Below, in pieces: positions 12,104 to 38,970 of a DNA stretch of 64,000 bases (positions are counted from its first letter, which is position 1; the number at the start of each line of letters is the position of its first letter). The translations under genes and the position numbers were made by a program. Origin of the DNA: Myxococcus stipitatus (GTDB lineage: Bacteria > Myxococcota > Myxococcia > Myxococcales > Myxococcaceae); the NCBI RefSeq assembly GCF_038561935.1, contig NZ_CP102770.1, positions 868,001 through 932,000 on the forward strand. The letters run 5' to 3'. Under the pieces are notes generated by a model, which was not told the DNA's origin, did not search any database, and saw nothing but the letters and a program-made list of their open reading frames with translations.

Positions 12104-17206
<5,103 letters not shown>

Positions 17207-29650: not shown

Positions 29651-30355
29651 ATGATGACGACAGACATTTCCAATGAGCGAATCCGAGTGGCCCTCCTGGA
29701 GGACCAGCAGGTCTTCAGGGAGAGTCTGGTGTTGGTCCTGGAGAACGCGGGGATGGATGTGGTGGCGCGCTGCTCGCAGACGCCTCCCTTCCTGGCGCGG
29801 GTGCGGGAGCACATGCCACACGTCGCCGTGCTGGACTTGAGGCTGGTGCCTCCGGACCAGGATGGGACGGAGACGGGGCTGACGGTGCTGCAGTGCCTGC
29901 ACGACTTCTACCCGTCGGTGAAGGCCCTGGTGTTGTCGAGTCATCACGAGCAGGACGTGGTGGAGCAATGTCTCCACGCGGGCGCGGCGGGCTACCTGTG
30001 GAAACACAACGTGGGCTGCGCGGACGTCGTGGAGGCCGTCACCCGGGTGGCGCGGGGCGAGCGGCTGATGCCCACCGGACTGTCCTGGGGGCCGTCCGTG
30101 CCGGGGTTCCTGCCGCAGGAGGAGGTTCCCCTGGGCGGCGTGGAGCTGGGGCTGCTCACGCCTCGCGAGCGCGAGGTGCTGGGGTACGTGGCGGCGGGCG
30201 CGGACAACCTCAAGATCGCCGCGTGCCTGAGCATCACCGAGCGCACGGTGAAGGCGCACATCACCAGCATCTACAAGAAGCTGGGCTCGGAGAACCGCAC
30301 GCAGCTGGCTGTCCTGGCGTGCCAGCTGGGCGTTCACCGCCCGGCAGGCGTGTGA
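29651..30355 (+). CDS. NarL/FixJ-family response regulator
   Basis: About 234 residues from ATG 29651 (or ATG 29654), with GGAG just upstream; a TTG at 29633 is less likely. The receiver has VALLEDQQVF and VAVLDLRLVPPDQDG, where a few extra residues follow the phospho-acceptor Asp, then ALVLSSHHEQ and GYLWKHN (Lys). The LuxR-type helix-turn-helix occupies about residues 165-225: LTPREREVLGYVAAGADNLK and ITERTVKAHITSIYKKLG. It binds DNA as a dimer in this family. Its likely kinase is the divergent PAS kinase. It ends in a strong bidirectional hairpin. Confidence 0.9.
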   Translation: MMTTDISNERIRVALLEDQQVFRESLVLVLENAGMDVVARCSQTPPFLARVREHMPHVAVLDLRLVPPDQDGTETGLTVLQCLHDFYPSVKALVLSSHHEQDVVEQCLHAGAAGYLWKHNVGCADVVEAVTRVARGERLMPTGLSWGPSVPGFLPQEEVPLGGVELGLLTPREREVLGYVAAGADNLKIAACLSITERTVKAHITSIYKKLGSENRTQLAVLACQLGVHRPAGV

Positions 30356-30474
30356 GACTCCAGGGTCGGCACTTGCAGGCAATGGGAAGGAATTGGCGGG
30401 CGTGGCAGGGTGTGAAAGCCCGTGGCGCTCCTCCCCTCCCCCCGCGCCAGGGGCGTGACGTGACAGAACTCCGG

Positions 30475-30513
30475 CGGGCCAGGGCAGTGACACGCAGCGC
30501 CTGCCCTGGCCCG
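30475..30513. terminator. Perfect 13-bp inverted repeat between convergent genes
   Basis: CGGGCCAGGGCAG (30475-30487) and CTGCCCTGGCCCG (30501-30513) are exact inverse complements around a 13-nt loop. It sits between the ends of the NarL-type regulator and the methyltransferase and can serve both strands. A short T-containing run follows on the plus strand. Confidence 0.75.
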
Positions 30514-30532
30514 TTGCTGTTCGTGAGCGGCG

Positions 30533-31555
30533 TCAGGGCTTGACGGCCGTCACCAGCTCGAAGGGCCCACCGCCGAGGACGCGCGTCTGCTCGAAGCCCG
30601 CCTCGTCGAGCATCCGCTGGTAGAGCTCCACCTCGCGCAGCCGGCTGACGCACGAGTCCACGCCGATGAGGAAGTACGTCCAGAAGAACTGCGCGGCCAG
30701 CCGCTCCTGCGTCCGGAACTCCTCGCAGATGATGACGCGCCCGCCCGACGGCAGCGCGGCCCACGCGGACTTGAGCAGGTGCAGCGCCGTCTGCGCGGAC
30801 CAGTCGTGCAGCACGCGCACGAACATCAGCACGTCATAGCCACCGGGCAGCGGCTCCTGGAGGAAGTCCCCGGGCACGAAGCCCAGCCGGGAGGGCCCCA
30901 GGTCGAAGCGCTCCCGCGTGCGCTCCACCAGGGGCTGGGTGGCCGGCAGGTTGTAGACGTCCACGCGCGCGGTGGGGTGCTCTCGCGTCAGGTGCGCCGC
31001 GAGGCTGCCATCCCCGCCGCCCACGTCGAGCACGCGCATGCCGTCGCGCCACAGGTGCCGGGCGTGCTGCCGCAGCGACTCCAGGATGGGCGGCAGCCCC
31101 ACGGCCATGCTGGTCTCGAAGCCCTCCAGCTGCTCGGGCGTGCGCAGGGGCCAGTCGAAGTCGTCCGGGGAGATGGAGTGCTGGCCGCGCAGCACCTCGG
31201 GCAGGCGCCCGTGCAGCTTGCGCCAGGCGAACTTCTCCCGGTCTCGCTCCCGAGACTGCGGCCCGACGACGGCCTGGGCCGCCTCGCGCAGGCCCGGCAC
31301 CGCGCGGTAGCGCGCCGACGCGAGCGCGTCCGTGTCCTGCTCGCGCTTCACCAGCCCCAGGCTCTCCAGGCAGTCCAGCAGCTTGTAGAGCCGGCCTGGC
31401 ACCAGCGAGTGCTTCGCGGACAGCTCCGCGAGCGTGATGGGGGAGGGGCCCTCCAGCGAGTCGAGCAGCCCCAGCTGGAGCGACGCCTCCACCACGTCCA
31501 CCGCCTTCGCGCCATTGTATAGCAGGTGCAACAGCGCGCGCGGCGACTGAGTCAC
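30533..31555 (-). CDS. SAM-dependent methyltransferase (O-methyltransferase family 2 type)
   Basis: A 340-residue enzyme. An N-terminal dimerisation/winged-helix domain (about 1-100: LLHLLYNGAKAVDVVEASLQ, LAELSAKHSL, LYKLLDCLESLGLV) precedes a Rossmann domain with VLDVGGGDGSLAAHL (SAM-binding motif I), FVPGDFLQEPLP, and DVLMFVRVLHDW. The family includes plant and bacterial small-molecule O-methyltransferases and some C- or N-methyltransferases of secondary metabolism. GTG 31555 overlaps the stop of the TDO-like gene as GTGA, so both are translated together. The substrate is probably a product or analogue of the upstream enzyme's reaction. Confidence 0.88.
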   Translation of the reverse strand: MTQSPRALLHLLYNGAKAVDVVEASLQLGLLDSLEGPSPITLAELSAKHSLVPGRLYKLLDCLESLGLVKREQDTDALASARYRAVPGLREAAQAVVGPQSRERDREKFAWRKLHGRLPEVLRGQHSISPDDFDWPLRTPEQLEGFETSMAVGLPPILESLRQHARHLWRDGMRVLDVGGGDGSLAAHLTREHPTARVDVYNLPATQPLVERTRERFDLGPSRLGFVPGDFLQEPLPGGYDVLMFVRVLHDWSAQTALHLLKSAWAALPSGGRVIICEEFRTQERLAAQFFWTYFLIGVDSCVSRLREVELYQRMLDEAGFEQTRVLGGGPFELVTAVKP

Positions 31556-32439
31556 GAGTCGCCCCTCGGCGCGGAGGTCAGTCCCGCGTGCATGGGGCAG
31601 GCGCCGCCAACGATGGGCGTGGCGTAGGCGCCCATGGCGCCCTCCATGCAACCCTCGCGGCTGGCGCCCGGGGCATGGCCGCCCTCGCGCCGCCAGCTGG
31701 CGGTCAGCTCCACGCGCGCGTCCCAGAGGCTGCGGAACAAGGGCAGCGTCATGCGCCCCGCCAGCACCTGCGTGGGCAGGCCGTCCAGCGCCTTCACGGA
31801 GCGGTCCACGCCGATGGTGCGCCGCACCAGCTGGAAGTGCGCGTGCAGCCAGCCCTGGAACGCCTCGTCGACATCCAGCAGCTGCTCGCACAGGCGCTTC
31901 AAGTCATCCGGCCCGCCCCGGTAGATGCCGAGCACCGTCTGGCCGCGCCGCGCGAGCAGCCGCTCGAACGCCAGCGCCAGGCCCTCCGCCGCCTTGCGGA
32001 ACATGTTGTAACCCGGTGACTCCTGTCCGGAGCCATTGCCCAGGCTGCGGCGGATGACCTGATAGGTGTCGGGCGTCATCGTCTCCAGCACGCCCAGCTC
32101 GGTGGACAGGCCGCGGACGATGCGCACCACGCGCTCCAGCCGCGCGGACGCCGCCCACAGCGCGTCCCGGTCCAGCTCCGCCACGAGCTCGACGGTCTCC
32201 CGCGAGGCCAGCTTCAGCCACAGCTCCTGCGCCTGATGCACCACCTGGAACATCAGCTCGTCGTGGGCGACGCGCTCGCCCTCTCCCGACTGCAGGGACA
32301 GCAGCTGAGGGGTCTTCAGGTAGACCTCGTAGTCCAGCTCCCCCCGGCCCACCCACTTCTTCAACAGGGGGTTGAAGAGAGGGGTATCCAATTCTTGCCG
32401 CAATTTTTCCGCGAAACTGTAACCGGGTGACGTGTGCAT
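31552..32439 (-). CDS. Tryptophan 2,3-dioxygenase superfamily haem enzyme
   Basis: A 295-residue protein of normal TDO length. Recognisable features: AHDELMFQVVHQAQELWLKL with His59 (matches the HDEMLFIVQHQ segment of Xanthomonas TDO), IRRSLGNGSGQESPGY with Arg130 (equivalent of Arg117) and LHAHFQLVRRTIG with His201 at the place of the proximal haem ligand. The GTGGSSG substrate loop that normally follows the haem ligand is replaced by an unrelated VKALDGLPTQ segment, so a non-canonical substrate or reaction is likely. A 40-residue tail with a GACPMHAG end is unusual. GGAGG upstream fixes ATG 32439. First gene of a two-gene operon with the methyltransferase. Confidence 0.85.
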   Translation of the reverse strand: MHTSPGYSFAEKLRQELDTPLFNPLLKKWVGRGELDYEVYLKTPQLLSLQSGEGERVAHDELMFQVVHQAQELWLKLASRETVELVAELDRDALWAASARLERVVRIVRGLSTELGVLETMTPDTYQVIRRSLGNGSGQESPGYNMFRKAAEGLALAFERLLARRGQTVLGIYRGGPDDLKRLCEQLLDVDEAFQGWLHAHFQLVRRTIGVDRSVKALDGLPTQVLAGRMTLPLFRSLWDARVELTASWRREGGHAPGASREGCMEGAMGAYATPIVGGACPMHAGLTSAPRGDS

Positions 32440-32599
32440 GGGGCCCTCCAGAAGGGTCGGGGTGGGCACTCGAAGATGAGGTGCGAAGGAGTTGTGCCTG
32501 TCGGTGACGGCGGACGTGACTCGCTACGGGATGCAGCGAGGAGGTGCGCCGAGCCTGGGACGGTTCAGGGCTCCCAGGCCCGGGAAGGACACAGCGACT

Positions 32600-32995
32600 T
32601 CAGGGGACAGCGGGTGGACGAGGCTTGAGTCGGAAGGTGCGCAGCCGGTTGGCGAGGTCCTCTCCCTGGACGCTCTTGGAGATGTATCCATCCGCGCCGG
32701 AGGCCAGTGCGAGCGAGCGCAGCTTGGACTCATCCGAGGCGGAGTAGAGGATGAACTTCGTCTTGGCGGAAGCGTACTGCCGGGCCAGGTTGACGACCTT
32801 GTCGCCCTTGAGGGCGGGGAAGTTGACGTCGATGAGGACGAAGTCCGGCTCCGATGCGCTGACCAGGTTGGAGACACCCAGGGCCGACGTGTGTGTCAGC
32901 ACCTCGAAGCCGTAGCTGCTCAGCGAGCGCTGGACGAGGTCGAGCAGGTCCGGGTCATCGTCCACCACCAGGACGCGTGCTTTTTCTTCAGCCAT
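32600..32995 (-). CDS. Single-domain response regulator, last gene of the FIST/hybrid kinase operon
   Basis: A 131-residue receiver: VLVVDDDPDL, FVLIDVNFPALKGDK (Asp acceptor), FILYSASDES and GYISKSVQGEDL (Lys). ATG 32995 overlaps the end of the hybrid kinase by eight bases. It is closely related to the receiver at 27535-27939, suggesting a duplication, yet they belong to different kinase contexts. It is a plausible phospho-partner of the hybrid kinase just upstream. Confidence 0.9.
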   Translation of the reverse strand: MAEEKARVLVVDDDPDLLDLVQRSLSSYGFEVLTHTSALGVSNLVSASEPDFVLIDVNFPALKGDKVVNLARQYASAKTKFILYSASDESKLRSLALASGADGYISKSVQGEDLANRLRTFRLKPRPPAVP

Positions 32996-35930
32996 GGCTT
33001 CTCCCTAGATGCTTGCGAATCATCTCGAGCAACTGGTCACGATCAAGGGGCTTGGTGAGGTACGCGGTGCAGCCCGCCGCGTGTGCTTTGTCTTGATACT
33101 CCCGCCCCGCATGCGCCGTCACCGCGATGACCGGCACGTTGGCCACGGAGGGCACCGCACGCAAGCGGCGTGTTGCCTCCCAACCATCCAGGCGCGGCAG
33201 GGACAGGTCCATCAAAATGAGGTCTGGATTGTCGCGCGTCGCGCGCTCCAGACCGTGTTCTCCATCCTCCGCCTCGATGACCTCGAACAATCCGCCGAGG
33301 TATCGCCGGACGATGTCCCGATTCTGGGCACTGTCTTCCACATACAAGATGCGCGGCAGCCTTCCCGCTGTCGCCGCGCGCTGTGACAACAGGAGGCCCT
33401 TGGCTTGAGCGATGACGTCCTCGAGCGCGTGGCCTCCCTTCTTCACGAAGCCCGCGAAGCCGTCTCGCAGGAGTGCTTCCTCATCGGACGTGAGCGACTT
33501 GCCGGTGAGCACGACGACAGGGACCTGGAGCTTCTCGGCGCGCAGGCGCCGCAGCACCTCGAAGCCATCCAGGTTGGGCATCATCAAATCCAGCACGACG
33601 AGCGACGGCGGAGACACCCGCGCCTTGAGCAGCGCGTCCTCGCCGTTGCGCGCCTCGGCGGTGCTGAAGCCGGCGCGGCGCAGGTTGCGGCTGACGAGCT
33701 CGCGCGTGGCCGCGTCGTCGTCCACCACCAGCACCTCGCCCACGCCGGCCGCGGTGCCGTTGGTGGGGCCCAGGCAGCGCTGCACCACCTCCACCAGCCG
33801 CTCCGGCTCCACGGGCTTGACCAGGTACTCGCACGCGCCCAGCGAGAAGCCGCGCGCGCGCTGCTCCTCCACGGAGATGAGGATGACGGGGATGCCCGCC
33901 AGCGCCGGCTCGCTCTTGAGCTGGCTGAGCACGGACCAGCCGTCCAGCTTGGGCAGGTGGATGTCCAGGAGGATGGCCTGGGGCTTGAGCTCGCGGGCGC
34001 GCTTGAGCGCGGCGATGCCGTCCTCGGCCACGACGACCTTGAAGCCCGCGGGCGCCAGCTGGCCGGTGACGAGCTGCTGGATGAGCGGGTCGTCATCCAC
34101 CACCAGCACGGTGCTGCCCGGCTGCGCGACGGCGTTGAGGTGGTGGGCCACCTCCGCCACCGGCACCGCGCGCTCCACGCCATTCGGAGCGTCGGTGGGC
34201 GCGTCCGCCATGTTGGGCAGGCGCACGGTGAAGGTGGTGCCGCGGCCCAGGGTCGACGTCACGGAGACGTTGCCGCCCAGGACGCGCGACAGCTCCCGGA
34301 CGATGGCCAGGCCCAGGCCCGTGCCGCCCACCTTGCGCGTGGTGGAGCCGTCCACCTGGCGGAACTTCTCGAAGATGAAGGGCAGCTGGTCGGAGGGGAT
34401 GCCGACGCCGGTGTCCTCCACCGTCATCACCACCTCGTCACCGGAGGGCACCACGCTCAGCGCCACCTCACCCGTCTCGGTGAACTTGGCGGCGTTGCTC
34501 AAGAGGTTGAGCATGATCTGCCGCAGCTTCAGCGCGTCGGTGCGGAGGATGCCCGCGGCCACGTCGATGTGCGTGGTGAGGGCCACGTCCTTGCCCTTGA
34601 GGTACTCCTTCACCGTGGCCATGCACTCGTCGGCCAGCTCGCGCACGTCCACGGCCTCGCTGACGACCTCCACCCGGCCCGCCTCGATTTTCGACAGGTC
34701 CAGGATGTCGTTGATGAGCGCCAGCAGCGTCTTGGCGTTCGTCTTCACGACGTTGAGGTCGCGGCGGCCGTGGGCCGTCAGGCGCGAGCCCTCCTCGCGC
34801 ATCAAGAGGTCGCAGTAGCCGATGATGCCGTTGAGGGGCGTGCGGATTTCGTGGCTGAAGTTGGCCAGGAACTCGCTCTTGAGGCGGGCGGCGGCCTCGG
34901 CCTCGCGGGCACGCTCCTCCTCGTTGCGCTTGGCCACCGCCAGCTCCTGGGCCAGCCGGTCCAGGTCCTCGTTCTGCTGGCGGATGATCTCCATCTGCAG
35001 CGCGCGCTGCTGGTAGGACGCCAGCGAGCGGGCGGACACCGCGCGCGTGCGTTTGATCTCCTCCAGGCTCGCGGCCAGCTGCTTGTTGGCCGCCTCCAGC
35101 TCCGCCTTGGACGCGCGCAGCATCTCCTCGTTCTGCTTGCGCTCGGTGATGTCCTCGGTGACGCCGAGCAGGTAGCTGGCCTCCCCGGAGCCATCCATGA
35201 GCGGCAGCTTGCGCGTGGCGAAGATGCGGTCCACGCCGCCGGCGCGGGCCACCTCCTCGAAGGCGCGCATCTTCTTGGAGGCGAGAATCTCCGAGTCGAT
35301 GGTGATGAACGAGTCGGCCTGCTCCGGCGGGAAGTAGTCGTGGTCCAGCTTGCCGAGCAGCCACTCCTTGGTGACGTTGAACGCGTCGGCGAAGGTCTTG
35401 TTGACCACCACCAGCCGGCGCGTCTTCGCGTCCTTCACGAAGAGGACGAAGGGCAGCGCGTCCAGGATGTTGCCGAGAATCCAGTTGGTGCGCAGCAGCT
35501 CCTCGGTGGTGGCGTCATGGCGCAGCTGCGCGCCGGCCAGCGGCAGCTCGCGACGCAGCACGGGCGCCAGGCGGTTGAAGCGGTCCTCGCTGACGTAGTC
35601 GCGGGCGCCCGCGCGGGTGCTGGCCTCCAGCGTGTCGTCGCTCCACTCGCGCGACAGCACCACGAAGGGCAGCTCGCGCTGCTGCTTGCGCCACAGCACC
35701 TGCGCCTCGGCGAAGCCCAGGCCCGGCACCTCCGAGCCACAGACGACCAGCGACCAGGAGCGCGACAGCGCGGCCTCCAGCGCGGCCCGCGTGGTGGCGC
35801 GCTCCGAGCTGGCGATGACACCCGCGTGGCCGAGCGCCTCTTCCACGCGCTGGCACTCGCGCTCGCTGCCCACCACCAGGAGGGTGGCGGTGTCCGTGGG
35901 CGGGACGGGGGGAGTGAGGGTGTTGACCAT
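32988..35930 (-). CDS. Hybrid histidine kinase: degenerate receiver, PAS, kinase core, three receivers
   Basis: 980 residues, no transmembrane helix. Residues 15-130 look like a receiver but lack the acidic pair and the phospho-acceptor (SWSLVVCGSEVPGLGF). A PAS domain follows at about 150-275 (ILDALPFVLFVKDAKTRRLV, then LLGVTEDITERKQ), then a coiled coil (275-340). HisKA has NFSHEIRTPLNGIIGY with His360. The ATPase shows IMLNLLSNAAKF, EDTGVGIPSDQLPFIFEKFR and GGTGLGLAIVREL. Three receivers follow with AILLDIHLPKLDG, VVLDLMMPNLDG and LILMDLSLPRLDG. The ATG lies 3 bp after the FIST stop, and the next gene overlaps its end. A FIST protein followed by a hybrid kinase is the NosP/NahK arrangement. 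Confidence 0.93.
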   Translation of the reverse strand: MVNTLTPPVPPTDTATLLVVGSERECQRVEEALGHAGVIASSERATTRAALEAALSRSWSLVVCGSEVPGLGFAEAQVLWRKQQRELPFVVLSREWSDDTLEASTRAGARDYVSEDRFNRLAPVLRRELPLAGAQLRHDATTEELLRTNWILGNILDALPFVLFVKDAKTRRLVVVNKTFADAFNVTKEWLLGKLDHDYFPPEQADSFITIDSEILASKKMRAFEEVARAGGVDRIFATRKLPLMDGSGEASYLLGVTEDITERKQNEEMLRASKAELEAANKQLAASLEEIKRTRAVSARSLASYQQRALQMEIIRQQNEDLDRLAQELAVAKRNEEERAREAEAAARLKSEFLANFSHEIRTPLNGIIGYCDLLMREEGSRLTAHGRRDLNVVKTNAKTLLALINDILDLSKIEAGRVEVVSEAVDVRELADECMATVKEYLKGKDVALTTHIDVAAGILRTDALKLRQIMLNLLSNAAKFTETGEVALSVVPSGDEVVMTVEDTGVGIPSDQLPFIFEKFRQVDGSTTRKVGGTGLGLAIVRELSRVLGGNVSVTSTLGRGTTFTVRLPNMADAPTDAPNGVERAVPVAEVAHHLNAVAQPGSTVLVVDDDPLIQQLVTGQLAPAGFKVVVAEDGIAALKRARELKPQAILLDIHLPKLDGWSVLSQLKSEPALAGIPVILISVEEQRARGFSLGACEYLVKPVEPERLVEVVQRCLGPTNGTAAGVGEVLVVDDDAATRELVSRNLRRAGFSTAEARNGEDALLKARVSPPSLVVLDLMMPNLDGFEVLRRLRAEKLQVPVVVLTGKSLTSDEEALLRDGFAGFVKKGGHALEDVIAQAKGLLLSQRAATAGRLPRILYVEDSAQNRDIVRRYLGGLFEVIEAEDGEHGLERATRDNPDLILMDLSLPRLDGWEATRRLRAVPSVANVPVIAVTAHAGREYQDKAHAAGCTAYLTKPLDRDQLLEMIRKHLGRSHG

Positions 35931-35933
35931 GGC

Positions 35934-37097
35934 TCAGTTCGCCCCGAACACCAGCGTGGTGAGCGTGGTGTTGATGTGGAACCCGGAATAGATCTCGAAG
36001 TGCACGTTCATCCCCGCGGCGGTGGGCGCTGCCTTCAGGGTCTCCGCGAGCTGGGACACCGTGTTCGTCGCGTGCGCGTACCACATGCGCCCGCCGCAGT
36101 GGAACAGGAGCGCGGCCTGCGGATTCTGGACGCGCCGGGGCAGCTCGTCCGCGAAGAAGCCCCGCGTCATGCCGGCCATGTCGCCCAGCTTCATCAGCTC
36201 CAGCTCCGTGCCCTCCTCCAGCAGGTTGGCGAAGAGGATGGAGCCGTCCTCGTTGGGCCGCCACGCGGCGCGGATGAAGTACTCGCGGCCCACGCGCAGC
36301 GCGGTGGGGCGCACCGCGAAGCCCTGCGGCGTGCCGAACTCCAAATCCCTCACGTCCTTCACGCCCAGGATTTCCGCGTAGCGCTTCGCGGCGGGGAAGC
36401 CGTCGATTTCCAGCGCGCGCGTGTGGCTCTCATCCACCTTGGTGATGGTGAGCTTCTCCCCGGTGGGCACGTACCAGTGCGAGCGCAGCGCGGCCCAGGG
36501 CGCGTTGGTGCGGAACAGCGCCACCAGCACCGCGTCGGTGGCCACCTCGCCGTCCACGTGCACCAGCGCGGACTGGCGCGCCGGGTCCCGGTTGTGGTCG
36601 CTGGCGCCGCCGCCCACGAGCACCAGCGTCTGGTTCTTCTCGAGGATGCCCAGCAGCAGCTCCTCCTTCTTGTAGCGGAAGCCATCATCGATGACGAGGC
36701 CCACGCAGCGGCGCGAGTCCAGGTCCTGCTGGCGCACGCCCAGCTCCTCGCACGCGCGCTTGATGGCCATCTGCCCCGCGTTGATGGCGTCCACGGACAG
36801 CCCGGTGCCCAGGCCCAGGCCCACTTCCAAATCACCGGAGAGCGCGGCCATCACCACGCTGCCCTCGTGGATGCCGGTGTTGTCCAGCTCCCCCGCGGTG
36901 GTGGCGCCCACCAGCCGCGTGCCCTTGGGCAGCCGCTCGCGCACGGCGCGGTTGAGCGCGTACTGGTCGCGCTCCCGTGAGGCGAACATCGTCACCAGCA
37001 CGGGAGGGGTGGGGCCCAGTTGGCGAAGCAAATCCTCCGCGGCCGCAGCCGGCTCCTGGAGCGTGGTGCGAGCCGTCTGCATCTTCACTTGGGCCAT
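35934..37097 (-). CDS. FIST-domain sensor protein (NosP-like)
   Basis: A 387-residue soluble protein covering FIST_N (about 25-215: PVLVTMFASRERDQYALN, LVGATTAGELDNTG, GLVIDDGFRYKKEELLLG) and FIST_C (about 215-380: LEIDGFPAAKRYAEILGV, ending in EIYSGFHINTTLTTLVFG). FIST proteins sense small ligands; in Pseudomonas the stand-alone FIST protein NosP binds haem and nitric oxide and regulates the neighbouring hybrid kinase NahK. Histidines that could bind haem are in GASDHNRD, RSHWYVP, DESHTRA and GFHIN. I cannot tell which, if any, does. GGAGG five bases before ATG 37097 fixes the start. The preceding gene is a multihaem cytochrome, 28 bp away. Confidence 0.9.
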   Translation of the reverse strand: MAQVKMQTARTTLQEPAAAAEDLLRQLGPTPPVLVTMFASRERDQYALNRAVRERLPKGTRLVGATTAGELDNTGIHEGSVVMAALSGDLEVGLGLGTGLSVDAINAGQMAIKRACEELGVRQQDLDSRRCVGLVIDDGFRYKKEELLLGILEKNQTLVLVGGGASDHNRDPARQSALVHVDGEVATDAVLVALFRTNAPWAALRSHWYVPTGEKLTITKVDESHTRALEIDGFPAAKRYAEILGVKDVRDLEFGTPQGFAVRPTALRVGREYFIRAAWRPNEDGSILFANLLEEGTELELMKLGDMAGMTRGFFADELPRRVQNPQAALLFHCGGRMWYAHATNTVSQLAETLKAAPTAAGMNVHFEIYSGFHINTTLTTLVFGAN

Positions 37098-37125
37098 GGA
37101 GGTCCTCCAGAGGTGGAGCGGCGGC

Positions 37126-38970
37126 TTAGAGGCCGCTCTTCGGGTGCCGGGTGTGACACGAGTCGGTGCACTGCTTGAAGGACTCTCGTCCTCCGCCGAC
37201 ATACATGCTTTCGATGGGGCCGAACTTCTTGACGTGACTGTCTGGATAGCTCTTGTGGCACGACAGGCACGCGGCCTGGCTGGTGCGCTGGATGCTTTCC
37301 TTCGTGAGGTGACACGAGGCGCACTTCTCCAGCGGGGCGCCAAAGCGGTTGGAGCGCGAGTGCACGAAGTGCGTGCGCACGAAGATGGGGCCTTCCAGCT
37401 CGAAGCCCAGCGGCGTGTGGCAGCCGGCGCACGCGGCGCGGTTGTCGTTGCCGTGCAGCACCTGGGACAGCTCCGCGCCCTGGCTGTGGCAGCTGTTGCA
37501 CGGGCCCGTGGTGAGCTTGGCCTCCGTGCGCTGCTGGGTGCCCACCTGGATTTCGATGGTGCGCGAGGCCGGGAGGTCCTCGCCCAGGTACACGCGGCGG
37601 CCCTTCACCGTCACCAGGTACGTGCCCGGCGTGGCGTTGGCCGGAATCCTGTACTGCCACGTGTCCGTGTTGGGGCGGTCCCACAAGCCCTCTTCGGGGA
37701 AGAAGGCGCCGCGGAAGACGATGTTGGCGTAGGGGAGGATGGAGAACTGGGAGAACACCCCGTCCCGCTTCTCCGTCGCCACGGTCTGCTCGTTGACCTC
37801 CGGGTCCAGGAACGCGTCCAGGTCGATGACGGAGCGGATGGGTTGGATGTTTTGTGCGGGCCCAATGATTTGGGTCATCAACATCCGCTCCCGGTGCTTG
37901 CGGCGGTAGTACGTCGTCGTCGCATCGAAGAAGGCCCGATAGTACTGAATGCCCGCCGCGTTGAAGCCCCGGACGACGTCATTGTAGGACGGTAGACTTC
38001 CCTGCGGATGGAGCCTTTTGCCTTCCCCATCGCGAAGGGTGACCTGGAAGGTGATTTCTGACCCAGGGGCGTAGGTGCCATCCTGGCGGGGTGGGGTGCG
38101 GGCCTCCACGTCGATGCCGAAGCCGTAGGCGAACTCGGGGGCGCTCACCTGCTGCACGGGGATGGAGTAGGGCGCGAAGGGGCGCAGGCTCCAGCGCAGG
38201 CGCAGGGAGGTGGTGCGGGGGCTCAGGCTGAACGCGCGCTGCTGCGCATGCTGGTACGCGTTGCGCACCTCCAGGAGGGCCTCCTCCTCGTAGTCCCGGG
38301 CGCTGGTGCAGTCGCGGGGCGTGGTGCAGTCGTAGGCCGTCTGGATGGCGCGCAGGCGGCGCACGAAGAAGTCGTCCGTCGTGGGGCGGCGCTGGTGCTC
38401 CGCGCCGATGTTCAGCACCACGGGGGGGCCGGTGAGCACGCCGCGCGAGTCCACCGGCTCCACGATGAAGAAGCTGGGGAGGTCCATCCAGGCGGCGCCC
38501 CGGTAGAAGCGCCGGCGCGTGTAGCGGCCCGGGCCGCCCAGCAGCACGGGCTCCTCGTCCACGGGACGCAGCCCCACCCAGCCCACGCCCGCGAGGTCGC
38601 TGGTCGTGCGCAGGGCCCACATGCCGGTGTCGAACGTGGACCGCACCGACGCGCGGAGATCAATCTGGTTGATGTAGAAGGTGGCGCCCGCCCGCACGCT
38701 CAACGGCTTGCCCTCGCCGTTGTCGACCTCCAGGGCCAGGCCAATGGGCTTGGACAGGACGGGGCGGCGCGCTGCTTCCACGTCCAGGTGCGCCGGGTCC
38801 GCCGTGGCCAGGGCGTCGTCGTCGGGCGAGCCGGCGTCCTCCGGACCACCGCATGCCGACAGCACCGCGGCCAGCGCGACGGTGAGCAATGCCCGACGGG
38901 CCGTCAGGCAGCCGAGCGAGCGGGGGGTACACGCTGCGCGCTGAGACCAGGGGGCTCCAAGTCCGCCCAT
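37126..38970 (-). CDS. Multihaem c-type cytochrome lipoprotein
   Basis: A 614-residue exported protein with lipobox VLSAC around residue 36-40. Residues 50-480 form a large beta-rich domain without haem motifs. The C-terminal 125 residues carry four CxxCH sites (CNSCH at 491-495, CAGCH, CASCH, CLSCH) and a fifth, CTDSCH at 601-606, that is the rarer CxxxCH type. A 5-haem electron-transfer domain is expected. The overall pattern resembles multihaem outer-surface cytochromes and related OmcA/MtrC-like proteins of deltaproteobacteria. AGGAG precedes ATG 38970. It starts the operon with FIST, hybrid kinase and receiver. Confidence 0.88.
   Translation of the reverse strand: MGGLGAPWSQRAACTPRSLGCLTARRALLTVALAAVLSACGGPEDAGSPDDDALATADPAHLDVEAARRPVLSKPIGLALEVDNGEGKPLSVRAGATFYINQIDLRASVRSTFDTGMWALRTTSDLAGVGWVGLRPVDEEPVLLGGPGRYTRRRFYRGAAWMDLPSFFIVEPVDSRGVLTGPPVVLNIGAEHQRRPTTDDFFVRRLRAIQTAYDCTTPRDCTSARDYEEEALLEVRNAYQHAQQRAFSLSPRTTSLRLRWSLRPFAPYSIPVQQVSAPEFAYGFGIDVEARTPPRQDGTYAPGSEITFQVTLRDGEGKRLHPQGSLPSYNDVVRGFNAAGIQYYRAFFDATTTYYRRKHRERMLMTQIIGPAQNIQPIRSVIDLDAFLDPEVNEQTVATEKRDGVFSQFSILPYANIVFRGAFFPEEGLWDRPNTDTWQYRIPANATPGTYLVTVKGRRVYLGEDLPASRTIEIQVGTQQRTEAKLTTGPCNSCHSQGAELSQVLHGNDNRAACAGCHTPLGFELEGPIFVRTHFVHSRSNRFGAPLEKCASCHLTKESIQRTSQAACLSCHKSYPDSHVKKFGPIESMYVGGGRESFKQCTDSCHTRHPKSGL

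Follow-up and report, generated by a model that had tools for sequence, protein, structure and literature searches.

The overlapping gene pair

The window analysed here is a stretch of 64,000 nucleotides from the 10.2-Mb genome of Myxococcus stipitatus, and the subject of this work is a pair of overlapping genes on its reverse strand. The upstream member, at 31552–32439 (ATG start at 32439, TGA stop at 31552), encodes a putative heme oxygenase of 295 amino acids that resembles tryptophan 2,3-dioxygenase (TDO) and is referred to below as the TDO-like protein. The downstream member, at 30533–31555 (GTG start at 31555, stop at 30533), encodes a family-2 methyltransferase of 340 amino acids (OMT). 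The sequence GTGA at 31552–31555, on the same strand, contains both the stop codon of the TDO-like gene (31552–31554) and the start codon of the OMT gene (31553–31555). A first-pass annotation made from the DNA letters had described such a pair coupled by GTGA, and the coordinates, the overlap and the Pfam matches bear this out.

The TDO-like protein scores 88 bits (1e-24) against the Pfam family Trp_dioxygenase (PF03301), well above the gathering cut-off of 34.9, but it scores 113.1 bits against the NCBIfam TDO equivalog TIGR03036, far short of the cut-off of 390.7. The OMT scores 79.5 bits (2.8e-22) against Methyltransf_2 (PF00891, gathering cut-off 22.3) and 29.8 bits against the dimerisation domain PF08100 (cut-off 25.6), and it lies far below the cut-offs of all of the equivalog profiles in NCBIfam. 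It has both domains and an LHDW motif in common with the family-2 O-methyltransferases BchU, ASMT, RedM, SibL and MmcR; acceptors on oxygen, nitrogen and carbon are all represented among enzymes of this kind, and the substrate of the OMT is not predictable from the likeness. The motif takes the form RxLHDW, with its conserved histidine in HDW, at 72 of 72 orthologous loci. LHDW-type motifs are the site of the general-base histidine in caffeate-type O-methyltransferases, and the conservation of RxLHDW therefore somewhat favours the prediction that the acceptor is oxygen rather than nitrogen.

Both genes are under purifying selection, with dN/dS values relative to their nearest relatives of ~0.1 for the TDO-like gene and 0.12–0.18 for the OMT gene. 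The TDO-like protein has 14 close orthologues that are 63–85% identical to it. A chance reading frame or a pseudogene is ruled out by the presence of orthologues in 57 genomes, by the invariant residues described below and by the dN/dS of ~0.1 between close relatives; the pair is a real and conserved variant of the TDO family. A scan of positions 30200–33100 for sigma-70 promoters, which is uninformative in this phylum, found none.

Active site, loops and fold of the TDO-like protein

Residues were mapped position by position on an ungapped alignment with the TDO chain of X. campestris (XcTDO). The predicted proximal heme ligand is H201 (31837–31839), which corresponds to XcTDO H240; the predicted distal histidine is H68 (32236–32238), which corresponds to XcTDO H55; and the predicted contact of the substrate carboxylate is R130 (32050–32052), which corresponds to R117 in XcTDO and to R118 in MarE, a TDO-fold enzyme discussed below. 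All three codons are read from the reverse strand, and all three residues are invariant in the orthologues and in distant relatives. His201 and Arg130 had been named as key TDO positions in the first-pass annotation, and rightly so, but His59, the third residue named there, aligns with XcTDO H46, while the distal H55 has its counterpart in H68, which is present. The other pocket residues are kept as well (Y37, Y40, F64 and Y126 for XcTDO Y24, Y27, F51 and Y113), so that the TDO-like protein retains the equivalents of this entire set in canonical bacterial TDOs (X. campestris, 2NW7; R. metallidurans, 2NOX).

What separates the protein from these canonical enzymes is the absence of the GTGGSSG loop, of the PASGFQS loop and of a segment of ~50 residues, containing TDO helices F and G, which is missing between two aligned blocks. 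Residues 214–222 (SVKALDGLP; 31774–31800, reverse strand) occupy the position of the first loop, where the stretch corresponding to GTGGSSG reads SVKALDG in the ungapped alignment, or KALDG after a two-residue insertion in the multiple alignment. Each residue from K216 to P222 is the same in all 15 orthologues compared, and the loop is therefore a conserved replacement rather than the outcome of decay; the earlier claim that GTGGSSG has been replaced holds up, no such sequence being found in the alignment check. The threonine of the TDO loop that contacts the substrate amino group is absent, its place being taken by leucine or valine. In the position of PASGFQSxQYR, the orthologue and multiple alignments place residues 135–145 (NGSGQESPGYN; 32005–32037, reverse strand), for which the MarE equivalent is ATGLDSPGY. 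The profile score, the two loops and the phylogenetic tree together rule out a canonical TDO, and the proposal that the protein belongs to the TDO family yet is not a canonical member is upheld by the PF03301 match, by the shortfall against TIGR03036 and by its place in a separate clade.

MarE, from the maremycin pathway of Streptomyces sp. B9173 (PDB 8VYY, 9CA3), shares with the TDO-like protein the TDO fold, the proximal and distal histidines and the substrate arginine, and it also lacks helices F and G (PMC11904535). The SPGY motif is common to the loops ATGLDSPGY of the MarE PDB chain and NGSGQESPGYN of the TDO-like protein. In neither protein is the second loop of the GTGGS type; SLGGR in the MarE PDB chain aligns with ALDGL of KALDGLP, which it loosely resembles, the L and the G alone being in common. 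The pockets differ, since MarE carries V27 and L114 (PMC11904535) at the positions of Tyr40 and Tyr126 in the TDO-like protein, which has tyrosine there as TDO does, and the partner genes differ as well, the TDO-like family being accompanied by a kynureninase-like gene and the family-2 OMT.

Structure prediction and phylogeny give a similarly mixed picture. An AlphaFold model from 15 close orthologues had a pLDDT of 52 and was set aside; a second model, for which one distant TDO was added, reached a mean pLDDT of 63, with values >90 in the core helices, and its use was confined to fold comparison. The best fold match of this model is MarE (Z 19.8 over 200 residues, 3.4 Å, 22% identity), followed by XcTDO (Z 17.9); Foldseek ranked TDO and MarE together, and a tree on 65 columns placed a MarE fragment at the base of the clade to which the TDO-like protein belongs, with 55% support only. 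By sequence and model, the TDO-like protein combines a MarE-like build with a TDO-like pocket and is a putative relative of MarE. The likeness to MarE suggested in the first-pass annotation consequently stands for the architecture (no helices F and G, SPGY, best fold match) and falls for the pocket, where V27 and L114 are not shared.

These comparisons bear on a reading, in line with that of the first-pass annotation, in which the protein acts as a MarE-like monooxygenase that places one oxygen atom on tryptophan or an indole derivative, giving a 2-oxindole or 3-hydroxyindoline that the OMT then methylates. Swaps between the MarE (SLGGR) and TDO (GTGGS) loops change the outcome of oxidation (PMC12312684), and the loop is therefore functionally relevant. 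A TDO with a MarE-type loop (the SLGGS variant) shifts toward the monooxygenated product (PMC12312684), which, with the replacement of the loop threonine by leucine or valine in the TDO-like protein and with the shared architecture and SPGY motif, speaks for a single oxygenation; in the work on MarE, loop swaps and the reductant decide between mono- and dioxygenation, and MarE itself dioxygenates without ascorbate (PMC12312684). Set against this are the tyrosines at the positions of V27 and L114, the low support for the placement of MarE beside the clade, and the kynureninase-like partner, which would have no obvious role in the processing of an oxindole. Monooxygenation is accordingly regarded as a serious but unlikely alternative.

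Distribution, operon history and genome context

Short TDO-like proteins with the motif GSGxxSPG and no helices F and G occur in Myxococcota, Micromonospora, Streptomyces, Nonomuraea, Rhizobium, Alloyangia, Novosphingobium and Vibrio, and they form one clade relative to the canonical TDOs (support 98/95), within which the group of the window protein is itself well defined (100/99). The loop type follows the branches of the clade: KALDGLP in the window protein's own group, V(K/R)SLKGVP in other Myxococcota, SLKGRP in alphaproteobacteria, and GTKGTP in actinobacteria and Vibrio. Orthologues of the own group (E < 1e-120) were found in 57 of the 195 sampled Myxococcota genomes, including all 27 of the genus; no relative of the protein was found in the viral contigs searched. 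A literature search in which few subscription papers were covered found no characterised orthologue, no myxobacterial pathway of this kind and no volatile anthranilate products. In one record titled Comamonas sp. KCTC 72670 (BNCN01000008.1, locus L011), the gene order is entirely that of Myxococcus and the TDO-like protein is ~76% identical to that of the window; the record is probably mislabelled or contaminated. Alphaproteobacterial members are divergent from genes for Lrp/AsnC regulators (L101 7357–8732, L102 7339–8705), an arrangement that suggests an amino-acid-responsive role for that branch.

The distribution also allows the pair to be weighed against a simpler assignment, in which the TDO-like protein would be an additional tryptophan dioxygenase of the ordinary kind, making formylkynurenine for general catabolism, and the OMT a mere neighbour. 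The retention of the TDO catalytic residues, the proximity of Lrp/AsnC regulators in alphaproteobacteria, and the finding that nine sampled distant Myxococcota carry the short type, the search having detected no other TDO-family member in eight of them, all speak for such a role. However, the genome of the window has a separate canonical TDO with PASGFQS and GTGGSSG, which rules out the TDO-like protein as its sole TDO, and a separate canonical kynureninase (C1:1175 kb, 463 bits), and the presence of these two enzymes argues for a specialised role of the pair. When the missing GTGGSSG and the co-conservation of the OMT, seen in 57 genomes as well as in a unit transplanted to Sorangium and described below, are also considered, ordinary catabolism becomes distinctly improbable.

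The OMT gene lies downstream of the TDO-like gene in the same orientation in nearly all loci for which enough sequence is available, and it has been displaced after insertions to a distance of 5.5 kb in P. fallax and 7.1 kb in another genome (G102). A kynureninase-like gene for a pyridoxal phosphate (PLP) enzyme stands between the two in 24 of the 24 examined loci from four genera (g5, g6, g8 and g9) and from a genome of another family (G161), hence in 24 of the 57 genomes that have orthologues, and likewise in Sorangium cellulosum So ce26. No such gene was found between the pair in the window's own genus (27 genomes, many loci being covered to 1.5 kb downstream only), in genus g7 (4 genomes) or in genome G062. 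Judged by this gene order, the Myxococcus pair is the remnant of an ancestral three-gene unit. The first-pass annotation, which had noticed neither the intervening gene nor the missing helix F/G segment nor the changed PASG-type loop, had spoken of a two-gene pathway; that description fails for the other genera, the genome of another family and the Sorangium strain, all of which have three genes, and by the three-gene unit an opening of the ring in the kynurenine manner is indicated no less than an indole hydroxylation. Relocation of the middle gene within the window's own genome is not supported, the best match there (C1:2182857) being 30% identical, as against 62–72% among members of the module.

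The closest solved relative of the kynureninase-like protein is the P. fluorescens kynureninase 1QZ9 (2e-35), with which it has in common the class V PLP fold, the KYNU_C domain, and the TPR..RGG and C-terminal arginine motifs. It scores 46.6 bits against KYNU_C (PF22580), above the cut-off of 27, while the proteins of this type score 85–129 bits against the kynureninase equivalog TIGR01814, below the cut-off of 246.4; canonical kynureninases are 25–30% identical to it, and the gene has no counterpart in the window. Among distant members of the short clade, those in two distant Myxococcota genomes (G057 and G059) and on a Micromonospora plasmid adjoin a kynureninase-like or class-V PLP gene, and the others examined do not.

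The TDO-like copy in Sorangium is 73% identical to the window protein over its best segment, as compared with 62% for that of Hyalangium, and the three-gene unit there stands outside the kinase neighbourhood found elsewhere; these two observations suggest that the three genes moved horizontally into Sorangium as one unit. Directly upstream of the unit in So ce26 lies a gene of the TenA/PqqC family (L015 7001–7714).

In most loci of the Myxococcaceae type, the kinase neighbourhood around the pair consists of genes for a FIST protein, a hybrid kinase and receiver proteins. In the window it is represented at 32600–37130 by a FIST-domain protein, a hybrid kinase with a PAS domain and three receivers, and a receiver resembling CheY, and this arrangement upstream of the TDO-like gene is conserved among genomes of the Myxococcaceae type. 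A regulatory link between the pair and the kinases is unproven because related genera share synteny in general. The tail of the TDO-like protein contains the sequence CPMH (residues 281–284; 31588–31599, reverse strand), and a CP dipeptide, which resembles those of heme regulatory motifs, recurs in the tails of orthologues from the genus and several related ones. The C-terminal tails (L065, L087–L099 and the window protein) carry GGCPMH-type motifs, of which Myxococcus has one and g6 genomes have up to three, together with His/Ala/Pro-rich low-complexity extensions of up to ~300 residues. The conserved synteny and the CP motifs, in up to three copies, could be taken to mean that the protein is not an enzyme but a heme- or tryptophan-responsive regulator acting with the neighbouring kinases. 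This is very improbable, however, given that the full catalytic set is conserved, that the Sorangium unit has no kinases nearby, that the tail motif is missing from several genera, and that synteny common to related genera is weak evidence. Elsewhere in the window, positions 12104–17206 encode a 1700-aa hybrid histidine kinase with at least six HAMP repeats, likened by domain order alone to AskA (MXAN_0712), the ambruticin-sensing kinase of M. xanthus (PMC7643160).

A candidate kynurenine-type route

The gene structure, the conserved residues, the clade, the operon evolution and the purifying selection are established for the pair, and its conserved operon, with a methyltransferase and, in related genera, a kynureninase-like enzyme, points to a small-molecule pathway starting from tryptophan or a close relative. 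The best explanation, held with about even confidence and with a substrate and product that are inferred, is a secondary kynurenine-type route comprising oxygenation of the indole ring, an ancestral cleavage of the side chain, and methylation. The TDO-like protein would be an active heme oxygenase with histidine as the heme ligand, belonging to a separate clade of short TDO-family proteins. Its H68, R130, Y126 and heme ligand are kept, so that R130 and H68 are expected to hold an indole amino acid, either tryptophan or a substituted form of it, in the manner of TDO and MarE, and the ring would be oxygenated with O2 activated on the ferrous heme. The loops NGSGQESPGYN and KALDGLP may take the place of PASG and GTGGS in holding the amino group and may tune the outcome. 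Opening of the ring between C2 and C3, to give a (formyl)kynurenine-type product, is the likeliest chemistry because the ancestral operon has a kynureninase-like PLP enzyme between the TDO-like protein and the OMT; that enzyme would then shorten the side chain, yielding an anthranilate-type product and alanine, and the OMT would methylate an oxygen, or less probably the nitrogen, of the anthranilate-type product. In Myxococcus, where the PLP step would have been lost from the operon, the canonical kynureninase may act in trans or the step may be skipped, and the product may differ.

In support of the kynurenine-type route, all of the TDO catalytic and pocket residues are kept and are invariant across orthologues and distant relatives, and MarE itself is capable of dioxygenation without ascorbate (PMC12312684). 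The distinct clade, the kynureninase-like genes at the related loci and beside distant short-clade members, the separate canonical TDO and kynureninase, and the purifying selection count on the same side. Against it are the lack of the kynureninase-like gene in the window's own genus, the score of that gene below the kynureninase cut-off and its putative substrate, the loop without the TDO threonine together with the shift of TDO toward monooxygenation when given a MarE-type loop (PMC12312684), the lack of a formamidase gene, none being seen adjoining the TDO-like/OMT unit, and the lack of a large biosynthetic cluster nearby, no large NRPS/PKS cluster being seen among the window gene calls when the starts of the proteins were read by eye. 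On balance, the kynurenine-type route is the best reading of the sequences, in preference to plain MarE-like oxindole formation.

The determinants in the loops of TDO-fold heme enzymes that decide between the incorporation of one and two oxygen atoms have recently been addressed by the MarE/TDO swaps (PMC12312684). The short clade offers natural loop alternatives, KALDGLP and SLKGVP in myxobacteria, SLKGRP in alphaproteobacteria, and GTKGTP in actinobacteria and Vibrio. The window protein and its relatives in Myxococcota retain the full set of TDO catalytic residues. The conserved operon, in turn, provides a testable oxygenase/kynureninase-like/methyltransferase pathway in the genetically tractable Myxococcus. 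Relatives of the protein bear the database name “tryptophan 2,3-dioxygenase family protein” and a GO term that assigns them to the degradation of tryptophan to kynurenine, and such annotation of short-clade members may mislead metabolic reconstructions. A far-reaching and speculative extension, improbable as a whole, is that a dedicated pair, derived from a three-enzyme secondary kynurenine pathway, makes a methylated tryptophan-ring metabolite in all sampled Myxococcus species, that the enzymes of the SPG-type clade constitute a novel catalytic group among the heme-dependent aromatic oxygenases, with a loop chemistry of their own, and that the metabolite serves in signalling or defence in connection with the sensor kinases encoded nearby.

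Two plasmids carry TDO-family genes in other settings. On that of Micromonospora zamorensis (L100 4325–11166), a single gene run encodes a nitric oxide synthase, a globin, a short TDO-like protein, a class-V PLP enzyme and a 423-aa TDO-family protein, and possibly represents a nitro- or oxo-tryptophan pathway. On that of Streptomyces sp. NBC_01006 (L103 2837–16645), TDO-family genes of 248 and 414 amino acids lie side by side within an NRPS cluster.
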